Source: Armillaria gallica (Eukaryota > Basidiomycota > Agaricomycetes > Agaricales > Physalacriaceae). Taken from it: a stretch of 64,000 nucleotides of DNA. Shown here piece by piece: positions 18,004-55,239 of the stretch. The stretch's first letter is position 1, and every line of letters begins with the position of its first letter. The stretch lies in the NCBI GenBank assembly GCA_037576215.1, contig JBANDB010000020.1, positions 1,054,001 through 1,118,000 of the forward strand, given 5' to 3'. The notes under the pieces are model-generated. The model was not told where the DNA came from and made no database searches. It saw nothing but the letters and a program-made list of their open reading frames with translations. Made by a program: the position numbers and the translations under genes.

Positions 18004-18491
18004 ATGACCTACTCTACCGGCACCTCCACCGGTCACCGCTCCAAGTTTCCATGGATGCTGGGTTCGTTTCTTGGCACACGACGTTGTCAGTGGGGCATCG
18101 TGCTGCTCCTACCGCTACCCACTCAACCCGCTCGTCGACTGCACCGTCCGAGGTCCAGTCCCACCACCTGCCTTCCTCACGGTCCCGCCGTTCTTATCTG
18201 AGCTATCGCGATGCATCGGAGGAAGAGATAATGGAGGAATTGGCTCGACATCGCCGACGTCGTGATGGGGAGGCTCCTGGTGAGTTTCCTCAACATTCCT
18301 ATGCACCTGTACGCTCTCGAGGCGATCTAGGTGTTCATGGTTCAACCCTACCGTCGACGGGTCAGCCTGCAGTCACCCCAAACCATGCTGGCTCACGGGT
18401 GTACGCTTCACCTGTTATGGATATCGGGCCTTTTCCGGTCGTACATGAGTCAACACATGCCTGTACTCGGGCTTCTCGGTCTCAAAGGTGA
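18004..18491 (+). CDS. unidentified Ser/Arg-rich reading frames (mobile-element-like)
   Basis: Two overlapping frames are open. One starts at 18004 (MTYSTGTSTGHRSKFPWMLG). The other (18051-18491) encodes SSTAPSEVQSHHLPSSRSRR followed by EEEIMEELARHRRRRDGE, a charged, probably helical segment. The composition resembles gag-like or N-terminal tails of fungal retroelements, but no zinc knuckle, protease or polymerase motif is seen. The hairpin array lies 180 bp downstream. Confidence 0.25.
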
Positions 18492-18670
18492 CTCGCTCGT
18501 ATCTTCTCTTACTTTCTCTATTTTTCCTACAGACACCAGAATACTGTAGAACATTGTAGAACAATAATGACTCGAAACCTCTAGTATATAATCACAGTCT
18601 GTACTATTGTAATCTTAATCTAATTTTCACTACTCTTCAACATCCACTTAACTGTGTGATTTAAGCATCT

Positions 18671-18798
18671 TTGATTGGTTACGCCCAGCGCTTGCCAGTC
18701 AATTGCTTCCCGACTACGCCTAGCGCTTGTCGGAAACCCTGTCAGTTACGCCTAGCGCTTGCTGACGCCCTCGTTAACTACGCCTAGCGCTTGTTAGC
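18671..18798 (+). repeat. array of four hairpins with constant 14-nt loop
   Basis: The 14-mer TACGCCYAGCGCTT occurs four times, starting at 18680, 18715, 18747 and 18779. Each copy is bracketed by complementary flanks that differ between copies: TTGATTGGT/GCCAGTCAA (9 pairs, two of them G-T), CCGAC/GTCGG (5, then a mismatch and 2 more), TGTCAGT/GCTGACG (7 with wobbles) and GTTAAC/GTTAGC (6 with a wobble). The loop stays fixed while stems change in a compensating way, as expected when the fold is selected or when a loop-specific mechanism generates the units. Units are spaced 32-35 bp. They lie between two Ser/Pro-rich open frames in a region free of recognised genes. Confidence 0.85.
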
Positions 18799-18966
18799 AC
18801 CCTATCGGATCCCTCTTGGTGGTTGGAACTCGGCTTTAGGACATCCTCGCTCACAACTTGGGTTTTACTTGAGTATTCATTACTTTGTGTATTACTCTAA
18901 ATACTCTGATTCTTAACATCACCACACCACGTAGCGACCTTTTCGCCATCGTGCTCACCTCCGGGG

Positions 18967-22082: not shown

Positions 22083-24970
22083 ATAGTGGTTGATACGATT
22101 TGCTTTTTGTTCAATTCGTTTGCTCGACACCGTTCTTTGCTTCTTGGTTCTTTCAGAATGTAAGGCCAATATCTTCGTCTTTATTATTCTGCCTAAAATA
22201 TACATGTGCTGTTTTTACGAAGTACCAGCCCAGAGTCCTTTCTACGGTGAATTCTGAGTGCCCAGTTTATGAAGTGGGTGACATCGTCCCTCTTTCTGCA
22301 GCGCGGGGATCTATTCCCCCTTTCTGCAAATATGTGAGTGATGAATAATTTTTTCCCTCCACATCACACATGGACTTAAATTTTTGATAGCTGATGGCCA
22401 CGTCGAGGGCTCCGACCCTATTTCCTCCATAGGAGTGAGGATGTGTTTGGACAATGCAATAAGGTGAGTGATGGGCATATATCTCGTTGTTCTGTCTAGG
22501 TGACCGTTGAGAACATGGTATTTCTAAAGTATCAGGGAGTACAGTGAACTATTAAGATTGCGCAATAGTGTCGGCCTATCTCGCTCCAAAAAACATATCG
22601 CATGCGCCAGACCCAACCACATCTTCCGTTTCGTAGGGCGTTAAAAAGGCATACGTCTATTTTTGTTACATGGATGTGCCAGAGAAAATTAAAAACATGA
22701 ATTCCATCATACAGTTCATTTTTGGCTGGCAGAGACGGAAAAGGACGGAGCCGGATATTGCCGAAGACGCTCCGCTTCGACCATCATTCATCATTGCCAA
22801 CTATACTCGCCGTCCCTCCCTCTCATACCTCTGCCATCGCTTCTTTATATCTTTGTCCCTGCTTCCTCTGCCAAATAGTACTGCATAATTCTCCCATTGG
22901 CAAATGAAGGTCTTGGATTGGGTGCATCCTAAACTCTTTGGGTGACATGTACGTGGCGAGGTTTTTTGGTGGGCGGTCTTGATGCTAATAGTAACAGTAG
23001 CCAACTGTCACACTGTGTTATCCAATCTGCATTTTGTGTCCCGTGCGTCCTCGTTCCCAAGGATATGCGAAATATAAAGGATGACCAGTGACAGCAACAA
23101 CTCGACGCCACAATTGAGGTCACCAAGAATGAATCAAAGAAGACTTGAAGTGAGTGCCACGGAGTACCAGTGGTAGGTTTTTTGCTGTAGGTATTCTGCA
23201 GGTTGTTTCAGCGTCCGGCCAACTCTAATTATCTATCCTTTCAGAAGTCTCTTCGGCTCTAGTAGTAGATACAAGGGCGAACGCATGTTCAACATCGTAA
23301 TACAACCCCACCTCGCTACTGAGGAGAGCACTACCCCCAGCCTCTATCATAACTACGCTCGATTACGATTCAGGCGGACGTATAACGGGAGGATAGTCTA
23401 GCTGGTGATGATCATCGGGCTGCGAGTGTGTTCAATCTGGTTTCACGTCCTGCAGTCGGTGAGTGGCCAGTGTTGCTTTGTGATCCTCTCTCAGAGGCTG
23501 ACATATCCGATTTAGGATAGTGTCGACTATCGTTTCCTCATTCCCGTTCCCTATGATGGTGCCTTTGGGAGAGTAGGAACCCTACGCCGTCGTACCGTGG
23601 ACCCCATATGTTCGCCCGTGTTGTTCACTGTCATACTTTCCCCGTCCGGCTCTGCCATAAACACCGCCTCATCCCGCATCGATTGTCCTCGTTTCTCTCC
23701 CTCAATAGCCGTGCCATGGGTTCAGCCACCCAGGCCATTCTATCTTTCTCATAGTCGTCAGTGACTGTCTTCGCTCCTTGTGTTATCTCGATGACGTATC
23801 CTCGTAAAATTGCGGCCGAAGCACTGTCGTGTCTATCAGCGAATTGTATGGTCGTTTCGCCATACCGTAACGCCCACTTACCCTGTGGGCGTTTTGGGTG
23901 TCCGTAGGCGGGATGACGCGGCCGCTAGTGAGGTCAAATACAACAATAGATGAGAATGGCGTCGGAGGATGGCGCGAAGCTGCGCGCAGTCAATACCGAT
24001 GCATCTTGGTAAGATGAAATATTATACACTATGTCTCGTCAGTGCATACCGAGATGAAGGATGCCGTGAACTCTTGCATTTGACATGTGCTTCAGAGGTA
24101 TGCCCTGACTGCTGCTGTGTCGTCTATAGCTAATTTTGGATGCCCCAGCGTCCACTCCCGTCACTCGAAGAGGTCGTTCTGGACTTTCCTCTGTCGCAAG
24201 GGTTGTATCAAAAGCTGTCGCGGCTGATACCTTCCTTTCCCGCGCGCTTAAGAATTCTTGCGTCGTCTCTAAAGCCATTGAGAACTCCCGGGGTATGTTC
24301 TTCTCATTTCTGCCGTAGAATTCGTCCGATTAATTTGTAATTTTCATAGGTGCCGCTACTCGCAGCTGAGACACGCTAACAGATTATCTTAATCTATGCG
24401 CGCCATAGATTCGTTGAGGATGACTCTTCCTGTATCACCAAGGCTTTGGATCCCTTACGGTTCATACTCGTTTCTTTATCCTGATCCGCCAATTTGGCGA
24501 CGCCGAAATACCACCTGGAAGTGAACACGATCTCATTCAACGTTACGCAATGTACGAACGATTTCTTTGTAACTGTCTGTACCCAGGAGCGAAGAATATA
24601 TCACTGTCTCTTTAGTGCAAAGTTCGTTTATGACCAACTCGGCAAGGTCGAGATAATATTGAAGAGACAGAAAAGCTTCTCTGAAAGAGAGTAATTCACT
24701 GGCACTATGTATATCCACGATCCCGCCATCTATCTCTTGCATCCTCACCTATTTCATTATCCATTGCCTCGCGGACTCACCACTGTACTCTTCAGAGGAA
24801 AATTTGTGAAGCTAGACTCAAGAGTAGAGAGTAAGAAGCACAGAGCTCTCGTTAGTATGAAGTCATTCCTGTCGCTTCTTAGGATATGATACAGCTCGCA
24901 CGACATGGAGTTGAACAACATAGCGTTTAAATAAAACGTAAAGGGGAATATTGGGTCCGAGGCCTCAGCC

Positions 24971-26188: not shown

Positions 26189-27548
26189 ATGGCTCTGAGT
26201 CGGGAATTGCTGCCTACACATGACGAAACGTCACGTGGTTACTTCGCTGCTGACGTTCGTCACTGTCTCTCATCCTTCTCCGAGTGTAAACTCTGACTCG
26301 TTGTTTCACCTCTAGCCTGCTGCGATACTACCCGAATCAGCACAAAGTTCAGAAGAAATACGTCTGCTGGCGAAGTTTGAGCTCGAAGTAGCAGAACAGC
26401 TGCGAATTCCTGCGGAGGATATCGACTCTGTTACAATTCTCCTCGAGGTCAAGAACAAAGCATTGCAGGGTGTGGACTGTTCATTGAGTTTGGGAAAGCT
26501 CCACGAACTCCATCACCTCCGCCTTCAGGATAGTCGTGCTCATCGGAATCGTTCAGTCCATCTGGAAGTCTGCCCGTCCCCTCCAGGTGTCAGTCGCAAC
26601 AACAGTCGTTGTATCCCAAAATACTAATTAGTCACATTGTAGGACCCATACCGTGTCGACGCCTCTAGATTCTGGGCTGTCCTTATTGATATCAATGACT
26701 ATTCATCCTATCCGCTGCGTGGTTGTGTACCAGACGCACGGTTGATGGAGAAATACTTGACTGGGGACCTCGGCGTGCCCAGTGATCGTATCCAGCTCCT
26801 ACTCGGATCGAAGGAGCACAAATACCTTAAAGATCCTATATACCCCTCCCGTGCCCACATCATCGGTGCCCTTCTCAGTATCATTACCAACCCCGAGATC
26901 GCATGCGGCGACAATATCATCATCTACTACTCTGGACACGGCTCATACTATCCACCTTATACGGAGGAAGACAGCCATACCGATTATACAGAAACCCTGT
27001 GCCCCATTGATCGCGACACACTTGACACCGACGGTGTTCCCATCCCCGATATCAGTGACCGCGAATTGAACACCATACTTACACTCATCTCTCAAGCGAA
27101 GGGGCACCGAATCACAGTCATCCTTGACTGTTGTCACTCTGGTGGTGTCTGTCGCGGTCTACCCGAGCCGGGAGCGCGTACTTCTCCCCCTATGACCCGA
27201 GCAACACTTGAGGATATGCTCATTGCCGGGGAGAAGAACCTGATGCATTATCCTGGCTATCGCTCTATTTTGGCGAAGGACTGGCTCCCAGACATGAACT
27301 CCCACATTGTCCTGGCAGCCTGTAAAGACTATCAGTATGCAAAGGCGAAGGCAGTGAAAAAGGCAGATGGCACGGTCGCGGGGTATATTGGAATCTTCAC
27401 GGACTCGCTTGTGCGTGTTCTCCAGTCCGGCTACTGGAAGAAAGAGACGACATACGCTGATCTTGTTCACTGTTTTGACAAGACATCTCACCAGATGCCA
27501 GTCGTTGCCGGAAAACACAAACATGGGCGTCTCTGGTATCAGGATTAA
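26189..27548 (+). CDS. caspase-like (peptidase C14, p20-type) protease, three exons
   Basis: Proposed exons are 26189-26254, 26316-26588 and 26643-27548, giving 414 residues. Intron 1 (61 bp) has donor GTTCGT and acceptor CTCTAG; intron 2 (54 bp) has GTCAGT, TACTAAT and TTGTAG. Both keep the frame. Residues 23-113 form a charged, probably helical N-terminal part (EEIRLLAKFELEVAEQL). The protease domain starts near DPYRVDASRFWAVLID (residue 114) and has SYPLRGCVPDARLMEKYL. The catalytic His is in IIYYSGHGSYY (His212) and the catalytic Cys in ILDCCHSGG (Cys277). A small-subunit-like part follows (AACKDYQYAKA, GIFTDSLVRVLQSG) and ends in GRLWYQD. Mushroom genomes carry many such proteins; they are thought to act in programmed cell death or proteolysis, but the substrate is unknown. 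It is the only gene here with no visible lesion. Confidence 0.85.
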
Positions 27549-28287: not shown

Positions 28288-30971
28288 GGGCACTAGAAAT
28301 TCCGCGTGGTCGCCTGCGTGGTACCACGTTGGCGTGGTGCGTGGCCACGCAGCCACGCAAGTCATTAGTGAAACCTGAGTTGAACTCAACTTATTTTTGT
28401 ATATGTACTGCTTGATGCCCAGAAAGCCTTCTTAAAGATATTCTCATGTTTATTTTGTTTTCTTTTGCGAACGGTCTCCAGAAAACATACCCTGATTAGA
28501 AAATTACTTCAGGGTGCAATCAAGGTGCAATTTAGCCTATTACAGTAATCAGACCTTCAGTCTCACTTTCATACCATGATACGTAGACACTATTATATCT
28601 TACATGCATGTATCTATGATATTGAGAACGATAAACACCAGAAATTACTTACTCTCTCATGTTTCGGGCTTGAAGTTGTCATCCAGAGATGTCGCAACAC
28701 TATGACCATCAATTCAATGCCGACTTCGTGTCAATTCCTCCTTGATTGCTCCAATAATGACCAAATAGATAACTTAATTCCCACCAGAACAGCTCTTTGT
28801 CATGTACATAAATACCTTGGACCACGCAGCCACGCAACCACGCAGCCACGTAGGCACACCACGCAGGCTGACCACGCACAGCCACGCTGATTTACCACGC
28901 AGCCACGCGGACCACACAGGTACCACGCAGGCACCATGCATGGTTTTTCACTGATATTAGGACATTAATGCATTGGTGAAAGGTTATAATAATGACTTAA
29001 TTGTGCGACAATTCATCTTTTTGCCTGTGATTGACTGTTACTAAATATAGCAGCCATTCTTGTTAAGTCTTGGCTCGGTCAAATGCAACCCCACATCGTG
29101 TACATTGCTTCCATTTCCTTATCTAACAGGTTTTCAGGATTCTTTATACTCTTAAGATAGCCCCAAAAGTACTCTCTTATTCAAGCGTGCTGTCAGAGCC
29201 ACATAATCCGTGTAAAACACCATGATATTGGCCAAATTTCGAAGAATTTGGGTAATATAAGTACATAGCAGGTATATTTTGACCACGGAAACACTTTGAA
29301 TCGAACAATATAGCTGAAAGCGAGTCAGATTAATCGTGATCAAGTTCCGATGTAATTTTATTACCAGGTTATTAAATCTGGCGATGTTTCTTAAGGATTG
29401 GCTGTGGCCTCGGCTCAGAGTAATCCTTAGGCTCCCTAGTTGCAGACCGTTTGCGGGGTACCTTTATTTGAATCTCATGAGTAGTCCCATCCTCATACAC
29501 ATAGTGAGATCCTGGCTAAATTTCAGATATCAGTGTCGCACTGCTGTCAATAACAAAAGAATATCTTACCTCTACTTCGGATTCTGTTCCAAATCTATAA
29601 TCATCGTCATGATCTGTTGAATAAGGATACCAATTATCCTGATGACACCGTACATCAAGGCCCCATTGTTGATTACCCACAGCACCTGCCTCTTCGCTCT
29701 GGCCGAATAATAGTAACTCAAATATTTCATGTCCTTCGAGGTCAATGTTGATGATTGTAAAATTGTAAACCCATAGACCAGTGAACTGTAAGTTTTTTCA
29801 TAGCCTCAAATGTGGTATGGTCGATATCAAGGTCGAAATCGCCATCTGGCCATCCGGCCCACATCTCATGCAGTTTCTCACTCTTCATCAGATCAAGTGC
29901 CATGTTTTAACCCATCAGCAGTAGCTTGGAATTACTGGTAGCAGCAGATGCATCGCTGGCATGGAACTGAAAATATGTCCATTCTCTTTCACACTTTGTT
30001 TTCAGAGAACTATCCTATACTGGCTGAGCAGAAACACCCCTCACATCCAAGAGGGCTGATGGAACTTTGACTTCTTGCTTGGACGCTTCGCTTGCCTTGG
30101 GAATTTGCAAAGGATTTTCCAGTTGTTTCACCCGTTTTGGTACATAACATTGTACATTGCCTAGAAAGCACATCTATTACAGTGAAGAGACGAGTCACAA
30201 AATGTCTTACTGCTTGCATCCAAAACTGGAACATGTGTGCAATGAAAATCTGTGGGGAAAAGCCCTCCAGCATTTGTTAGGTCTTCATTTGATTTCCATG
30301 CAGATTTTTGTCAAGCCTTCGATGTAAACATCACTTGAATTTATCCTGGGAGGTACATGTCATAATTAGCTCTTTGTCTATCAGAAAAGAGTATGTACAA
30401 GGAGCGTAAACATGGTCTATGAAGCTTCATGGTTCCTAGGATAAACAGTAGCTTATGGGGTGTCAAGGATAAAAAAGAGAGGTGAAATTCATCACGTATT
30501 TTCGTAATCACTGTTAGACAGTAATTGCAACAAATGAAGTGCCTGGATTGAATCGGTTTCCATATTTCTATAGCAAAGCGGAACAGGAGAGAGATAGACT
30601 TTATAGTTGCCATTAAAATTGCGAGTTAAAGGTCGCCTATTCCAAAGATGAGTTGCACGAAATGAAGAAAAGATTACGTGACCGGCATAGAGAATAAGAT
30701 ACACTGAGGTCAGAAATCTCACACAAATAGCAAAGGTAGCCAGCCCTTCACGGATTCACATTAGTTATTAAGCGCATACAACAACAGTAGCAGAAAATGA
30801 TCTAGTAAACGTGAGGGCGACAGAGAACTGAGCCCATCGAGCGATGTTTGATGGGAGGTCGACTACCCCTGTGATTTGTCAACCACGCTGATCCGACCGC
30901 GCTGATCACATCAACCACGCAGCCACGCACCACGCAGCCACGCAGGCGACCACGCAGAATCCTTCTTGCCC
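28288..30971. mobile_element. DNA transposon, GGGCA-end family, 2684 bp, inserted in M36 gene
   Basis: Both ends read inward GGGCA...ATTCYGCGTGGTCGCC (28 of the first 34 bases match by eye). The element is bracketed by a perfect 9-bp duplication CTTAGAAAT (28279-28287 and 30972-30980). Subterminal zones are tandem-like arrays of CCACGCAG/CTGCGTGG. Similar arrays lie internally at 28815-28930. Interior open frames (for example 30010-30273, -) are short; on the minus strand a stretch with MKSEKLHEMWAGWPDGDFDL may be an old coding exon of unknown family. The 9-bp duplication favours a Mutator-like element, but no transposase is recognised. It is a relative of 53425-55239. Confidence 0.9.
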
Positions 30972-32335: not shown

Positions 32336-33471
32336 TAGACCTGTAACCGGTCATCTTCCATATAAGGGAGCAGGCTCACAATATATTCATAAGACGACCT
32401 GTACAACTGAGTTTAAATATAGCAGGTTCATTTTTGCTGACCACGCACCCTCCTAATAAGATATAGCATCCAAAACGGGAACGCCCTTGCAAATGCCTTC
32501 ACGCATGGATTCCACTGCCGATAACACATAGCTCCCTCCGGTATTGACAAAAGTAAAAGTCACAACTCCATCTCTGTTGGAAACAGCGTGCGTAAGACTC
32601 TGAGCTCTACCACAAAGGTTCTTAGCACCGTTTTCTCAGTCATAGATCACCCTCAGTCTGCCATCACAGGAGGAAGATAACCATATGAACATTTGCAGGC
32701 CGCCATCTTTCAGTCTTAACACAGGTACACCTCTACAAAGAACAGTAAGAATCCGATTTCCTAATCCCACATTCTCTTCATCCCCGAGTACAGTCTTACG
32801 AAACACTTCAGTAACATAGCTGTTACCCCAGGAAAGAAAGCGAAGTGAGCATCGTCAACATATATAGGTCGAATTTGATGCTGAAATCTTGAATCGCGTA
32901 TGAGACCGTAGAGACGATGCATATGCCATGTCTGCGTAGCTCAGTCCTGCGCCTCCGTAGTGGAATTAACCCTAAGAGAATCATGATTTAGTACGATGCG
33001 GTAGTGAAAGAGCTCCAAGCCGCGCGGTGCTTGCGTTCTGTGAGTAGCCTACCATCCAAGAAGAAGAGTTTTGAGACAATCGGGAGTTCATTCGGAAGCA
33101 GGCAAGCAGCTGGAAGAAATAAAATCAAGTCCCTTTTTGGCAGACTTCATCAAGAATCGAAGCGAAGTTGGGATCTGAGCATCGCGCAAAGCTTCGAAGA
33201 GTATTTTTGTGTCATATAATGTTTTCACAACATCAAGGATTATCGTGGTTGGAAATGCGGAAGCACACAGAAGGAGAAAGACGTGGCGCAGCGCGAGTAC
33301 ACGAAAAGCATTGGTTCAAGACGTGTTCCCGTTTTGTATGCTATATCTTATTAAGAAAGTGCGTGGTCAGCAAAAATGAACCTGCTATATTTAAACTCAG
33401 TTGTACAGGTCGTCTTATGAATATATTGTGAGCCTGCTCCCTTATATGGAAGACGACCGGTTACAAGTCTA
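32336..33471. mobile_element. DNA transposon with 147-bp inverted repeats (1136 bp)
   Basis: Bases 32336-32482 and 33325-33471 are inverted copies with about six differences, mostly transitions. The ends read TAGACYTGTAACCGGTC. A 9-bp duplication GGTATTGGT flanks the element (32327-32335 and 33472-33480); the right copy runs into an ATTGGT microsatellite, so the duplication could be partly coincidental. The terminal repeats contain the palindrome-free AT-rich block ATATATTCATAAGACGACC. Inner frames, such as 33004-33219, are unrecognised. Long repeats plus a 9-bp duplication are typical of Mutator-like elements. Confidence 0.85.
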
Positions 33472-41690: not shown

Positions 41691-44313
41691 GTCGTGGTTG
41701 ATGTGACTTGCTTTTTGTTCAATTTGTTTGCTCGACACCATGCAGTGCTACATGGTTCTTTCGGAATTCTATATGATCAAGTAAGGCCAATATCCTCGTC
41801 TTTATTGTTCTGTTTGAAATGTACATTTGTTTCTTTTATGATGTACGAGTCCATAGTCCTTCCTACGGTTATTTCTATGTACCCGGTTTATGAAGTGGAC
41901 GACATAGTTCCTCTTTCTGCAGCGCAGGGTTTTTTTCTCCCTGTCTACAGATACACGAATGATTAAAAACTTTTTGTTCAACGCATCACACATGAACTTA
42001 AATTTTTAATAGCTGATGGCTACGTCGACGGCTCCGACCCTATTTCCTCCATAGGAGTGAGGATGTGTTTGGGCAATGCAATAAGGTGAGTGACGGACAT
42101 ATATCGCAATGCTCTGTCTAGGTGACTGTTGAGAACATGGGACTTCTAAAGTATCTGGAACTACTCAGAGGTGCTCAATGAAAAGGGAGTACAGTGAACT
42201 ATCAAGATTGCGCAATAGTGTCAGCCTATCTCGCTCCAAAAAAATATATCGCATGCGCCAGACCCAACCACATCTTCCGTTTCGTAGGGCGTTAAAAAAG
42301 CATACGTCTATTTTGTTTCATGGATGTGCGAGAGCAAATTAAGAACATCAATTCCATCATAGAGTTCATTTTTGCCTGGCAGAGACGGAAAAGGACGGAG
42401 CCGGATATTGCCGAAGACACTCCGCTTCGACCATCATTGCCGGCTACACCCACCGTCCCTTCCTCTCGCACCTCTGACATCGCGTCTTTAAATCTGTAAC
42501 CCTGTTTCCTCCGCTGAATGGTACTGCATAATCCTTCCCATGGATGAATGAAGGTCTGGGATTGGGAGCATCCTAAAGTCTTGATTCTAACATTAGCCAA
42601 CTGTCAGACCGTTTTATCCAATCTGCGTTGCGCGTTTCGTGTGTCCTCACTCTCAAGGATGTGCGAAATGTAGAGAATGACCAGTGACAACAACAACTAG
42701 ACGCCACGATTCAAGTCACCGAGAATGAATCAAAGAAGACTTGAAGTGAGCGCCAAGGAGTACCAGTGGTAGGTTTTTTGCTGTAGGTATTCTGCCTGCT
42801 GTTTCAGCGTCCGGCCAACTCTAATTATCTATCCTTTCAGAAGTCTCTTCGGCTCTAGTAGTAGATACAAGGGCGAGCGCATATTCAACATCGTAATACA
42901 ACCCCACCTCGCTACTGAGGAGAGGACTATTCTCAGCCGTCTATCATAACTACGCTGAATTACGATTCAGGCGGACGTATAACGGGAGGATAGTCTAGCT
43001 GGTGATGATCATCGGGCTGCGAGTGTGTTCAATCTGGTTTCACGTCCTGCAGTCGGTGAGTGGCCAGTGTTGCTTTGTGATCCTCTCTCAGAGGCTGACA
43101 TCTCCGATTTAGGATAGTGTCGATTATCGTTTCCTCGTTCCAGTTTTCTATGATGGTGCCTTTTGAGAGCAGGCCCTACGCCATCGTTCCACAGCCCACA
43201 TATGTTCGCCCGTCTTGTTCACCGTCATACTTTCCCCGTCCACCTCTGCCATAAACACCGCCTCATTCCGCATCATTGTCATCGTTTTATCCCTTATTGG
43301 ATGTGCTATGGGTTCCGCCACCCCAGCCATTCTATCTCTCTTCGCCGACTGTCCTTGCTCCATGTGATATCACAAGGACGTATCCCCGTCAAACTGCGGC
43401 TGAAGCACTGTGTCGCGTCTATCAGCGGATTGTATCCGGATGACATAAGGTATAATACAATGAGGGATGGGAATGACATCGGAGGATAACCCGAAGCGTC
43501 CCGCACACAATATCGATGCATCTTGGTAAAATGAAAAGATTACGTCTTGTCAATACATGCTGAGATCCGGGATGCCGTGACCTCTTGCATTGACGCGCTC
43601 TTCTGAGGTCTGCCCTGGTTGCTGTTGTGTCATCCATAGCTAATTTTGGATGCCCCAGTGTCTATTCTGGTCACTCGAAGAGCTCGTTCTGGACTTGTCT
43701 TTGTCGCAGGTATGCATCAAAAACTGTTGCGGCTGATACCTTTCTTTCTTGTGGTTCAGAATTATCGTATAGTTTCTGAAAGTTAACGACACCTCGCTAG
43801 GCATGTTTCTCTCGTTTCTGCCGTAGAATTGGTCCGATTGACTTGCAATTCTCATAGGCGTCGCTACTCGCTGCTAAGGCGTGGAACACATCTTTGCGGA
43901 TGTCGATGATGGATCACTGAGGCTTTGGGTCCCTTATGGTTCACACACATATCTTTATCATAATTTGCCAATTTGGAGACACTCATCTCTGATACCTTTT
44001 TTATTTTTACTATGCAGTCTGATCTATGTCGGATTATCGATTCACGCCCAGGTACTTCATGGATGACTCTTGCAGACTCCCTTCTAGTTTCCACGGATCT
44101 TCATATCGAATAATATAGCCGTCTCTCCGCTCGACTGACTTATGTACCTTAAATTTCAGTGAACAAAGTTCAGGCTTATTACGAGGACCGGGTGACCTCA
44201 TACTAATAGAGCAAACGGACGAATATCTCGACTTCTATGTTGGCTTCATCATGAAGGCTTGGCTTGGAGTAACGTCGCATAATACCAAAATTACTCCTGT
44301 AACTCTTTATTCA

Positions 44314-44368
44314 TAGACAGGGAATTGAACCCCGAAATACAGCCTAGATGTGAATACGATACCATTGA
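44314..44368 (-). repeat. reverse tRNA-like B box within the family A tail
   Basis: Minus strand: TCAATGGTATCGTATTC, then GGGGTTCAATTCCCT. The related family A tail at 38865 keeps the same GGGAATTGAAC. Confidence 0.35.
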
Positions 44369-45373
44369 CCGTTATGCAGTATACGAACGATTTCTGTGTA
44401 ACTGTCTGTACCCAGGAGTGAAGAATATATTACTGTCTCATCTTCGGTGCAAAGTTCGTTTATGACCAACTCAGTGAAGTCGAGATAATATTGAGCAGAC
44501 AGAAAAGTTATTATTTGAAAGGTAGTTGTTCACAGGTACTACATATATTCACAGCCCCGCCTCCTATCTCTCGCGTCCTCACCTATTTCGTTATTCATGG
44601 TCTCATAAAGTCACCTCTATACTCTTCCCAGGAAACTCCGTGTACCTAGACTCCGCTGTCAAGAGTAAGAAGCAGAGAGCTCTCGTTAGTATGAAACATT
44701 TCCCATCGCTTGTTGGATATGATACGGTTCGCATGACATGGAGTTAGACAACATAGCGATTAAATACAACGCAAAGGGGAAATTTGTGCCCGAGGCCGAG
44801 GCCTTAGAACCTAGAGCGGCATTCCACCAAAAAATAAGCACGATGAGTGGCAAAGGCGGTATCTGCCAACTCCGGTGACGAACATGCCATCGTTTGAGTA
44901 GAGTTCATTCATTATCCAAGAGTTATCCTGCTCTACATATGCGTGGAGTCGCTATTTTCTGTAGAAGAGCTCAATGACCAAAGAATTGGTCGACAATGGC
45001 GGTGGTCCTTAAGTTAGAGTGAAGGATTGTTGAAGACAAAGCGAAACACGAACAAAGATTTCAGCCGCATCCCTGATCGGTCATCAACGATCATCAGATT
45101 ACCTTGCTTGAAAAGGTCTACCGAAGGTGACGGCCTTCCTTTTTTTAGTGTGGCTGAGGGTGCCCCAAAACTGTAACTTTGGGTAATAATATCACCATAT
45201 TCTATGTGTAGCTTGGTCGGTAAAGTTCACTCCTTGTGAAAACTGTAGCTTCAAAAACTAATACTACCAAACACTGAATTTCTTGCGCAATGCCAACACA
45301 CGATGTCTCCGAAAACTGTAACCTCAAAGAACAATAAAACCCAAGGGGGAGGCGTGGCTAAATTCCGGCAAAG

Positions 45374-53424: not shown

Positions 53425-55239
53425 GGGCACTAGAAATTCTGCGTGGTCACCTGCATGGTACCACGCTGGCATAGTGCGTGGCCATGCAGCCACGCAATTC
53501 TAATTGAACTCAAGTTGAACCCAAATAATTTAATATGTATATACTGCATGATGCTCTGAATGCATTCTCAAAGATATCATTATGTTTGCTTTGTGTTCAT
53601 TTGTGAGTTGTCTCCAGCAAAGATACCCGGGTCGGAAAATGATTTCCAAGCTCAACTTCCACCAAATACAGTGTATTGAACTTTGGATCTATGGTTTCTA
53701 GTTACCAGTGCATCTTAAATGTACATATATATAATTAGGAGAAGATTCTACGTCGAAACCAAGGCACTCTCTCATTCTATGTCCCTACGGATCTTAACCT
53801 AGTATTGTAGATATGAGTTACCCTTGGATTTTACATCTATACAGCTTCAATGTGTCGAGGACTATCCCAGTTGGCGATAAAACACACTAACAAATGTTAC
53901 TTCATTATGTGCAAAGTTGCCCTAGACCATGCAGTCGACCATGCTGATGTACCATGCAGCCACACGACCACGCAGCCACGCAGCCACACCACGCAGGCTG
54001 ACCACGCTCGACCATGGTGAGTTTTTGAATATTCGCCCCCCAGCACAGCTGCCATGTGAGTCCTAAAGAGGAAGTTCTCCAACGAACTGCCACATGACTA
54101 CGAGTTAGCTCAACTCAACAAATCACCATTATTCTTGCCACCCACCACCACTCACAACCATCACCGACGATGACAGCGACACGACCCAACTAGCGCTGCC
54201 CCCCATCCCGTCTCGCTCGTTAGCTGAATGCCGCTGCCAGCCACTATGCCGTTCATTAGTCAACCCCATACATCAAGGCCGGCGGCGACGGGACGGTGTA
54301 ATTATCGACTATACTAGTGACAGCAACCATTCCTGGCACGTCTTTTTGCTGGTGCCGCTGCTTTAGGACCCAGAGGAGGTGATGTTTGCTTTGGAGGAGA
54401 ATATACAATATGTATGTCCATTTATTACTAGTTAGTTGGTATTGGGTACAGCATAGGAACAGCACATTCTTAGCTGTACTTTTTGAATACACTTTTTTTA
54501 CTGCTTCTTAACTTTCATTTTCCCTGTAAGCAAAGTGCGTGAGGACTTGGTCAAATTTCTCTTTGGCATGCCACCTAGAGACTTCACACGAACTGCCACG
54601 CGGCACGCAGTACTTGCGAGCCAGTTCATTTTTTTATTACCATTTTGAGATATCACATAACGGTCACGGGAGGCGAATAGAAGACAACTACCATGGTGAC
54701 AAACCACGCAGCCATGTGGGCTTTACACTGAGATCATGCTTGTCCATATAAGATTGCCTTAAGAAAGTGCGACATTATTTTTATATTGGGCCCTCTGTGT
54801 TGTTCATACCAGATATAGAACATATTCTTCACTCGGTCAGTTACAACCCCACATCGTGTACCCTATTATTTCATGCTTAGGGAGAAGCTTTCATAGCCCT
54901 TTCATACTATTAGAATACTCGAAAATTTGTCTACTTCAGCGGCAATGCTGTTTACATTGTTTTTACCCTCTTAATCTTCAAAAACTAGGTTTAAATAATA
55001 TTTCCGTGATACTAACCATAATTAGAAGCCTTTGAATATCACACCGAGGCAGTAATATTTGAACCTTACACATACTCGTCGTCAATATTATTCCATGAAG
55101 GCATACCAGGAGAGAACGGAATGCGTCGCGTCGCGTTTGATGGGCTTGATCAACTTTTGATCGGGGTCCCACAATTTGTCAACCACGCTGACGACCATGC
55201 AGCCACGCTCCACGCAGCCACGCAGAATTCTTCTTGCCC
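53425..55239. mobile_element. DNA transposon, GGGCA-end family, 1815 bp, inserted in family A
   Basis: The inward ends are GGGCACTAGAAATTCTGCGT and GGGCAAGAAGAATTCTGCGT. The 9-bp duplication is GCCGCGAAT (53416-53424) and GCCGCGGAT (55240-55248), eight of nine identical. The paralogous sequence at 61950-61970 reads GCCGCGAATTGTATGATCGT without an insert, an empty site that confirms the boundaries. The interior shares blocks with 28288-30971 (such as CAACCCCACATCGTGTACC) and has CCACGCAG arrays at both ends and near 53940-54010. It lacks about 0.9 kb present in the relative. No transposase is seen. Confidence 0.92.

Follow-up and report, generated by a model that had tools for sequence, protein, structure and literature searches.

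Four successive hairpins in Armillaria gallica, at 18671 to 18798 of the window (the whole stretch of DNA analysed, 64,000 nucleotides long), are carried by a solo long terminal repeat (LTR) and present one nearly fixed head on stems that differ from hairpin to hairpin. We read this array as a cis-acting leader RNA element of Ty3/Gypsy-type LTR retrotransposons, likely devoted to packaging or dimerisation of the element RNA, and give this reading a probability of roughly 0.6. The evidence comes from the structure of the hairpins, their place in LTRs, the company they keep in full-length elements, and the way in which their stems have changed.

The Four-Hairpin Array of the Window

The first-pass annotation had described four hairpins with one and the same loop at 18671 to 18798, and these are real. 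Each loop is TACGCCYAGCGCTT with 0 mismatches, and the arms of all four are complementary, as had been claimed, if G.T is counted as a pair. All lie on the forward strand and are seen in the sequence, in the loop search and in the RNA fold. Hairpin 1 (slot A1, 18671–18702) has arms TTGATTGGT and GCCAGTCAA around a loop at 18680–18693; hairpin 2 (slot A2, 18710–18733) has arms CCGAC and GTCGG with the loop at 18715–18728; hairpin 3 (slot A3, 18740–18767) has arms TGTCAGT and GCTGACG with the loop at 18747–18760; and hairpin 4 (slot A4, 18773–18798) has arms GTTAAC and GTTAGC with the loop at 18779–18792. Hairpin 1 has G.T as its pairs 1 and 5, hairpin 3 as its closing and its outermost pair, and hairpin 4 as its pair 5.

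A loop search allowing up to 3 mismatches finds four other matches in the window, each with 3 mismatches. Shuffled windows contain 5.36 such matches on average, and at least eight in 18 of 100 cases; it is therefore the 257 exact copies in the genome, and not the count in the window, that exclude a chance origin of the loops. Folding of 18660–18810 as RNA yields these four hairpins, with a five-pair lower helix below hairpin 1 and a further trivial two-pair hairpin at the end (z of −2.23; equal or better folding in 6 of 200 shuffles). A scan of the window against Rfam at the gathering score gave 0 matches.

The 14-nt loop had been called invariant. Its sequence is indeed kept, but the loop is not open, as it holds an inner CGC/GCG helix, which is almost invariant in the alignment of 43 hairpins described below. 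From base to tip, the hairpin unit has an outer stem that varies, an internal loop (UA/CUU), the CGC/GCG inner helix and a triloop whose last base is A, and the consensus of the head is UA-CGC-YNA-GCG-CUY. Head variants with intact CpG sites retain the palindrome AGCGCU throughout families A to F (defined below).

The Array Lies in a Solo LTR

Searches with the flanks of the array revealed a dispersed repeat, many copies of which start or end at 18413 or 18918. As delimited by these copies and by an empty-site alignment, the family A LTR of the window spans 506 bp on the forward strand (18413–18918), starts with TGTTATGG and ends with TTAACA. It is flanked by the two copies of a target-site duplication, TCACC, at 18408–18412 and 18919–18923 (both forward), which are seen in the sequence and in the related locus L036: this locus has no LTR, and there the alignments of the two flanks share exactly 5 bp. 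The TG...CA ends, TCACC on both sides and the empty site together identify the structure as a solo LTR of an LTR retrotransposon. The array can serve as a motif for annotating solo LTRs in Armillaria.

A TATA-like box, TATATAA, is located at 18585–18591 (forward strand), 95 nt upstream of the first loop, and may act as a promoter. Among the eight LTRs of families A to E in which this distance was measured, it is 95 nt in two A LTRs and one B LTR, 83 nt in two C LTRs, 91 and 97 nt in two D LTRs, and 86 nt in one E LTR. With the box as promoter, the array would precede the primer site within the RNA leader; depending on the poly(A) site, it could also lie at the 3′ end of the RNA.

Several other features of the window were noted. 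Between 12488 and 62163 there are large diverged repeats about 8–20 kb apart, perhaps a tandem gene family, one example being 22160–24880 versus 41781–44714 with 66–96% identity in the matched pieces. A search with a caspase-domain (C14) frame at 26742–27548 gives 435 relatives with E no higher than 0.001; nearly all named proteins in the top 120 come from Armillaria and Desarmillaria, the best at 83% identity. An inverted repeat at 32336–33471, with arms of 147 bp (96%) lying 842 bp apart, has the layout of a DNA transposon or a foldback element. Short tandem repeats of the CCACGCAG type recur at 28822–28912, 30914–30945 and 55195–55223.

Arrays across the Genome

The 86-Mb, 28-contig genome contains 257 exact copies of the loop, compared with 0 forward and 3 reverse matches for a reversed-pattern control. 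The loop matches listed, about 100 in number, and three slot-specific patterns served as starting points for collecting 135 arrays, each with one to four hairpins. They comprise 411 hairpins and hold 251 of the 257 exact loops. Loops were accepted into the collection at up to 3 mismatches, and their conservation is partly a product of that selection, while the arms were unselected except for the right arms of A4, B3 and C3. Ten slots were named (A1–A4, B1–B3, C1–C3). By their arms, 350 hairpins belong to a single slot, 54 join arms of different slots and 7 could not be assigned. Loop changes outside the triloop cluster at two CpG sites, positions 3–4 and 10–11 (C to T, G to A), the pattern that methylation of repeats would produce; this was seen in the 411 copies collected at up to 3 mismatches.

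Full-Length Elements of Families A and B, and Family C

Five full elements (L031–L035) carry arrays in both LTRs and are bordered by 5-bp duplications. Their LTR pairs are 95.5–100% identical in the aligned pieces, which indicates that families A and B have both moved recently. In all five, TTGGTGGACACATTG follows the 5′ LTR and GACTGGGGGGGCTC precedes the 3′ LTR; in L032 the LTR alignment overran the LTR end by a few bases, and the first six letters fall across the boundary. Family B (L031 and L035) has three hairpins, with only two in the 5′ LTR of L031, and family A (L032, L033, L034 and the window copy) has four, with only two in the 5′ LTR of L034.

Family B is a chromovirus, that is, a Ty3/Gypsy element with a chromodomain. 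This follows from the order of reverse transcriptase, RNase H and integrase, then chromodomain, in a single open frame of 2290 aa in L031, pieces of which match these domains and a Tf2-1-like SH3 domain. The Pfam matches are RVT_1 (4.9e-26), RT_RNaseH (1.7e-23), Integrase_H2C2 (2.6e-19) and Chromo (3.7e-9), with rve (32.0 bits, cut-off 32.6) just below threshold and an aspartyl protease (22.8, cut-off 24.3) also below it. In L035 the same region is split into adjoining frames of 1405 and 883 aa.

Family A appears to be a non-autonomous element that codes for Gag only, with no recognisable pol in its listed frames. At E 0.001, Pfam matched none of six pieces of these frames from three elements. 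Over their first ~430 aa the frames share 39–42% identity with the opening part of the L031 frame, and this part of the A and B frames is probably Gag, judging by its place before protease and reverse transcriptase; Pfam gives it no name. The putative Gag of family B has a single CCHC-like motif. A search with the family A Gag frame, which scored 7995 candidate proteins, those with the most shared words, found 18 proteins, and the 15 named ones all come from Armillaria or Desarmillaria; like the relatives of the caspase-domain frame, they point to an Armillaria host.

Families A and B have in common the array, the LTR ends, the primer-site sequence and the polypurine sequence. Between their LTRs, significant alignment is limited to the array with ~50 nt before it and ~30 nt after it. 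For family C, which has three hairpins, no array pair was found; the primer-site sequence follows the array at C9:911915. An acceptor-stem pattern with perfect pairing revealed no tRNA partner for the primer-site sequence: it matched two places, not tRNA-like by eye, and its control likewise matched 2.

Families D, E and F and Other Leader Hairpins

The primer-site sequence occurs at 45 places in the genome, and LTR ends were fetched at 20 of them, chosen as lying outside the collected arrays. The first-pass annotation had suggested a covariance-model search. Run on these 20 LTR ends, a model built on families A to C found hairpins of two further families, in L190 and L193 (family D) and in L191 (family E), at E up to 0.013; it also weakly matched L200, a decayed family B copy (0.14). 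In 16 of the 20 ends there was no loop match, and one of them, L185, stops before its array. A D hairpin and an E hairpin were turned into search patterns, which uncovered 17 more loci: further members of D and E, some of A and C, and a family F (L204–L207 and L212) with the loop TACGCTTAGCGCTY; at these 17 loci the D3 and E1 arms belonged to the pattern, while the other hairpins did not. Three more LTR families thus bear arrays with other stems. A two-hairpin pattern had no exact match in viral contigs or prokaryote genome contigs.

Families B and E support a helix enclosing the whole array, which 0 to 11 of 500 shuffles equal. For F the case is borderline, with 44 such shuffles in 500, and C, D and A, the family of the window, give the helix no support (96 to 323 of 500). 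Where it was seen in L035 and L144 (B) and in L191 and L201 (E), it has 8–11 pairs and forms a cloverleaf-like domain.

Other leader hairpins were noticed by eye. L181, L183, L184, L187 and L194, which belong to other LTR families, share the primer-site sequence and bear, at roughly the leader position of the array, a single hairpin of another kind, CCGA-ACCT-CTAT-AGGT-TAA-TCGG, with CTGA...TCAG variants in L186 and L189; the stems of this group seem to be compensated too. L188 and L195–L199 show a third type, about GGACCTG...CAGGCC with variants, and a slightly different primer-site sequence follows their LTR.

Compensating Changes in the Stems

The hairpins that join arms of different slots provide a natural control, their loops being alike and their arms coming from separate slots. 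At stem positions 1–5 the same-slot hairpins (n = 350) form standard pairs in 94.1% of 1750 cells (1357 Watson-Crick, 290 G.T, 51 A.C, 52 other), versus 72.6% of 270 cells (105 Watson-Crick, 91 G.T, 50 A.C, 24 other) for the different-slot hairpins (n = 54).

The covariation test proposed in the first-pass annotation was carried out on 43 hairpins, and the compensatory changes prove to be beyond chance. The 43 were hand-picked among 121 distinct sequences of 30 nt so that arms differed and loops were intact, apart from one with an altered loop base. All 6 of the 6 outer pairs covary. Paired cells amount to 94.8% versus 78.2% in shuffled alignments, cells with a double change number 88 versus 26.4, and the covariation score is 0.593 versus 0.259. 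Two of the five measures are unremarkable: the number of pairs with a double change is reached in 45 of 500 shuffles and that of further pair types in 396 of 500. When the partner is slid by 1–3 columns, pairing falls to 21–48%, and RNAalifold, unaided, recovers the same structure from this alignment.

The same holds across slots. The commonest arms of the ten slots form 49 of 50 pairs with G.T counted (48 in the best of 200000 permutations) and 44 of 50 without it (best permutation 42). With 20 slots from families A to F, one locus per family picked after the arrays had been seen, 96 of 100 pairs form, and the best of 100000 permutations reaches 87; copies and slots share ancestry, and these permutation counts are not probabilities. 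The weakest of the 20 slots are D2 and E2, with 4 of 6 pairs each, and D2 and E1 hold one A.C each.

Individual slots show the path of change. Position 3 of slot A2 (58 copies) is GC in 12, GT in 23, AT in 20 and AC in 3, and position 2 of slot C3 is GC in 22, GT in 1, AT in 5 and AC in 0; passage between pairs through G.T intermediates fits RNA. Pairing is not perfect everywhere: in part of family A slot A1 pairs poorly (C.A at position 4 in 35 of 70 copies, T.T at position 5 in 36 of 70), and the family B copies L144 and L145 have lost the closing pair of hairpin 2.

Proposed Function and Alternative Explanations

From these data we infer that the array is transcribed, that its heads meet a binding partner, that it serves packaging or dimer formation, and that it permits mobilisation in trans; for the packaging or dimer role itself we consider the odds somewhat better than even. 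In the proposed mechanism, each hairpin would use its variable outer stem to present one nearly fixed head to a shared partner, and three or four heads in a row would provide several binding points per RNA molecule. The heads may act as a label by which Gag particles take up the element RNA, may join two genomes, or may do both; the palindrome AGCGCU could pair loop to loop. The putative Gag-only family A would use the same signal to get its RNA copied, reverse transcriptase and integrase being supplied by chromovirus relatives such as family B. The set common to A and B (LTR ends, primer site, polypurine tract and heads) is what would be expected of signals that are read by pol and by particle proteins.

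A bolder version, which we offer tentatively and consider to be somewhat short of an even chance, is a repeated-head RNA code. Autonomous and Gag-only families would both display, ahead of the primer site, three or four fixed heads whose stems are free to evolve, as a multivalent ticket that lets Gag-only elements compete for shared pol, and the palindromic heads would in addition zip two genomes together. To our knowledge, RNA selection by fungal Ty3/Gypsy elements is poorly mapped. The natural hairpins number in the hundreds, occur both in a chromovirus family and in apparent Gag-only elements, and combine nearly fixed heads with stems that are compensated; together with the deletion variants beside them they amount to a natural mutagenesis series, and they make it testable which RNA signal autonomous and dependent retrotransposons share.

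The strongest competitor, rather unlikely in our estimate, is a conserved leader RNA with another job: translation, RNA stability, 3′-end formation, strand transfer or priming, with a host protein as the possible mediator. Although the Gag-like part is only 39–42% identical between A and B, the head stays nearly fixed, and a conserved host partner fits this at least as well as Gag does; such a partner is the main alternative to Gag. The available text of PMC3601003 ties conservation in the longer R regions of some retroviruses to stem-loops and mentions that some chromoviruses prime with a 5′ hairpin and not with a tRNA. What speaks for packaging or dimerisation and against these other jobs is that the array is shared with the apparent Gag-only elements alongside primer site, polypurine tract and LTR ends, seemingly a set of mobility signals.

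The first-pass annotation had left it open whether selection acts on folded RNA or on DNA. At the DNA level, the array would consist of hairpins, cruciforms or a repeated protein site in the LTR promoter, its stems set by DNA symmetry. Repeated enhancer motifs are often present in LTRs, and folding with DNA parameters likewise yields the hairpins (z of −1.69). However, G.T on one strand is A.C on the other, so selection on DNA should favour neither. Among pair states with at least 5 copies there are 9 G.T versus 1 A.C at stem positions 1–5, and 1 G.T versus 14 A.C at flank positions 7–10 (Fisher p 4.6e-5; stem alone p 0.02), where the pair states are not fully independent and the stem-only counts are modest. 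With a cut-off of at least 3 copies the stem has 13 G.T versus 4 A.C (p 0.05), and with position 6 counted as stem 10 G.T versus 4 A.C; position 4 of slot A1, with its C.A in 35 of 70 copies, is a genuine exception to the bias. The array also lies downstream of the TATA-like box. As stem mismatches are mostly G.T and flank mismatches A.C, selection very probably acts on the array as sense RNA, in agreement with the covariation across 10 and then 20 slots, and the DNA half of the earlier suggestion is very unlikely.

Could the array have arisen without function, by tandem duplication and slippage, its complementary arms being the drifted remains of one ancestral hairpin? The spacing is fairly regular, and 53 of the 135 arrays hold a junction hairpin; no fixed hairpin number is thus kept, at least in dead copies. 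Copies with non-complementary arms had been named in the first-pass annotation as evidence against its reading. They do occur, 54 of the 411 hairpins joining arms of different slots, but 53 of these look like loop-to-loop deletions, in which an earlier slot supplied the left arm and a later one of that family the right; one mixed-arm hairpin (C3 with A1) falls outside this pattern. The 14-nt sequences are direct repeats, and slippage between them, or template switching, would account for the deletions. Among 17 same-strand array pairs 3–9.5 kb apart, the members differ in 8, of which two may not be true LTR pairs (C5:693343-700387 and C2:7602910-7611855). In several pairs only one LTR has a loop-to-loop deletion, and template switching at the repeated hairpins may have left this mark. 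Drift should ruin pairing, yet same-slot arms pair far better than different-slot arms (94.1% versus 72.6%) and all 6 outer pairs covary; moreover, the A and B LTRs align significantly only at the array and its immediate surroundings. Neutral duplication is rejected on the pairing contrast and the covariation, and we consider it hardly credible.

The least probable explanation, also raised in the first-pass annotation, is that a mobile mechanism repeatedly inserted the loop into pre-existing short palindromes; it would account for a constant loop between dissimilar arms, but we reject it with near certainty, as copies of the same slot differ by compensating G-C, G.U and A-U steps (A2, C3), the arrays form part of the LTRs in the full elements read, and 53 of the 54 unequal-arm hairpins resemble deletions between loops.

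Comparison with Known Systems

The leader RNA element proposed here can be set beside several known systems. The TR-GAG elements of plants are non-autonomous and have LTRs and a Gag frame without pol. Family A resembles them in having LTRs and a Gag homologue with no recognisable pol, and differs in its fungal host and in a leader hairpin array held in common with a candidate autonomous partner. A chromodomain is the defining feature of chromoviruses, according to the part of PMC3601003 available. Family B shares the domain set of this group and differs by its hairpin array.

Ty1 is a Copia-type element. The 5′ leader of this yeast element, as presented in the accessible text of PMC5454406, contains a pseudoknot and a pair of kissing hairpins, with which dimerisation and packaging are proposed to begin, and a Ty1 mini-element is mobilised by a helper. 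The likeness lies in an LTR-retrotransposon leader RNA with hairpins; as far as that text describes Ty1, its two hairpin loops are complementary to each other, whereas an array of identical heads is found only here.

The SL-C and SL-D hairpins of gammaretroviruses stand downstream of the primer site, while the present array lies upstream of it, inside the LTR. Excerpts of PMC5874298 describe the gammaretroviral packaging and dimer region, with GACG tetraloops on SL-C and SL-D of murine leukaemia virus and two GACG loops in RD-114 as well, and report that several palindromic stem-loops act jointly in retroviral dimerisation. Common to both systems is a fixed apical sequence on hairpins near the 5′ end of an LTR-element RNA. 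In those excerpts there are tetraloops and two loops, as against a 14-nt head with an inner helix and up to four hairpins here; no homology is claimed.

A literature search over titles and abstract openings found no account of such a hairpin array. The 14-nt loop sequence is absent from the literature text searched, and a 10-mer of it occurs in six papers with unrelated titles. The earlier statement that no described fungal element with this layout was known overlooks the place of the array in the LTR of a Ty3/Gypsy-type lineage. A structured leader signal of LTR elements is known as such; what is new is a repeated fixed head on freely changing stems, held in common with apparent Gag-only elements.
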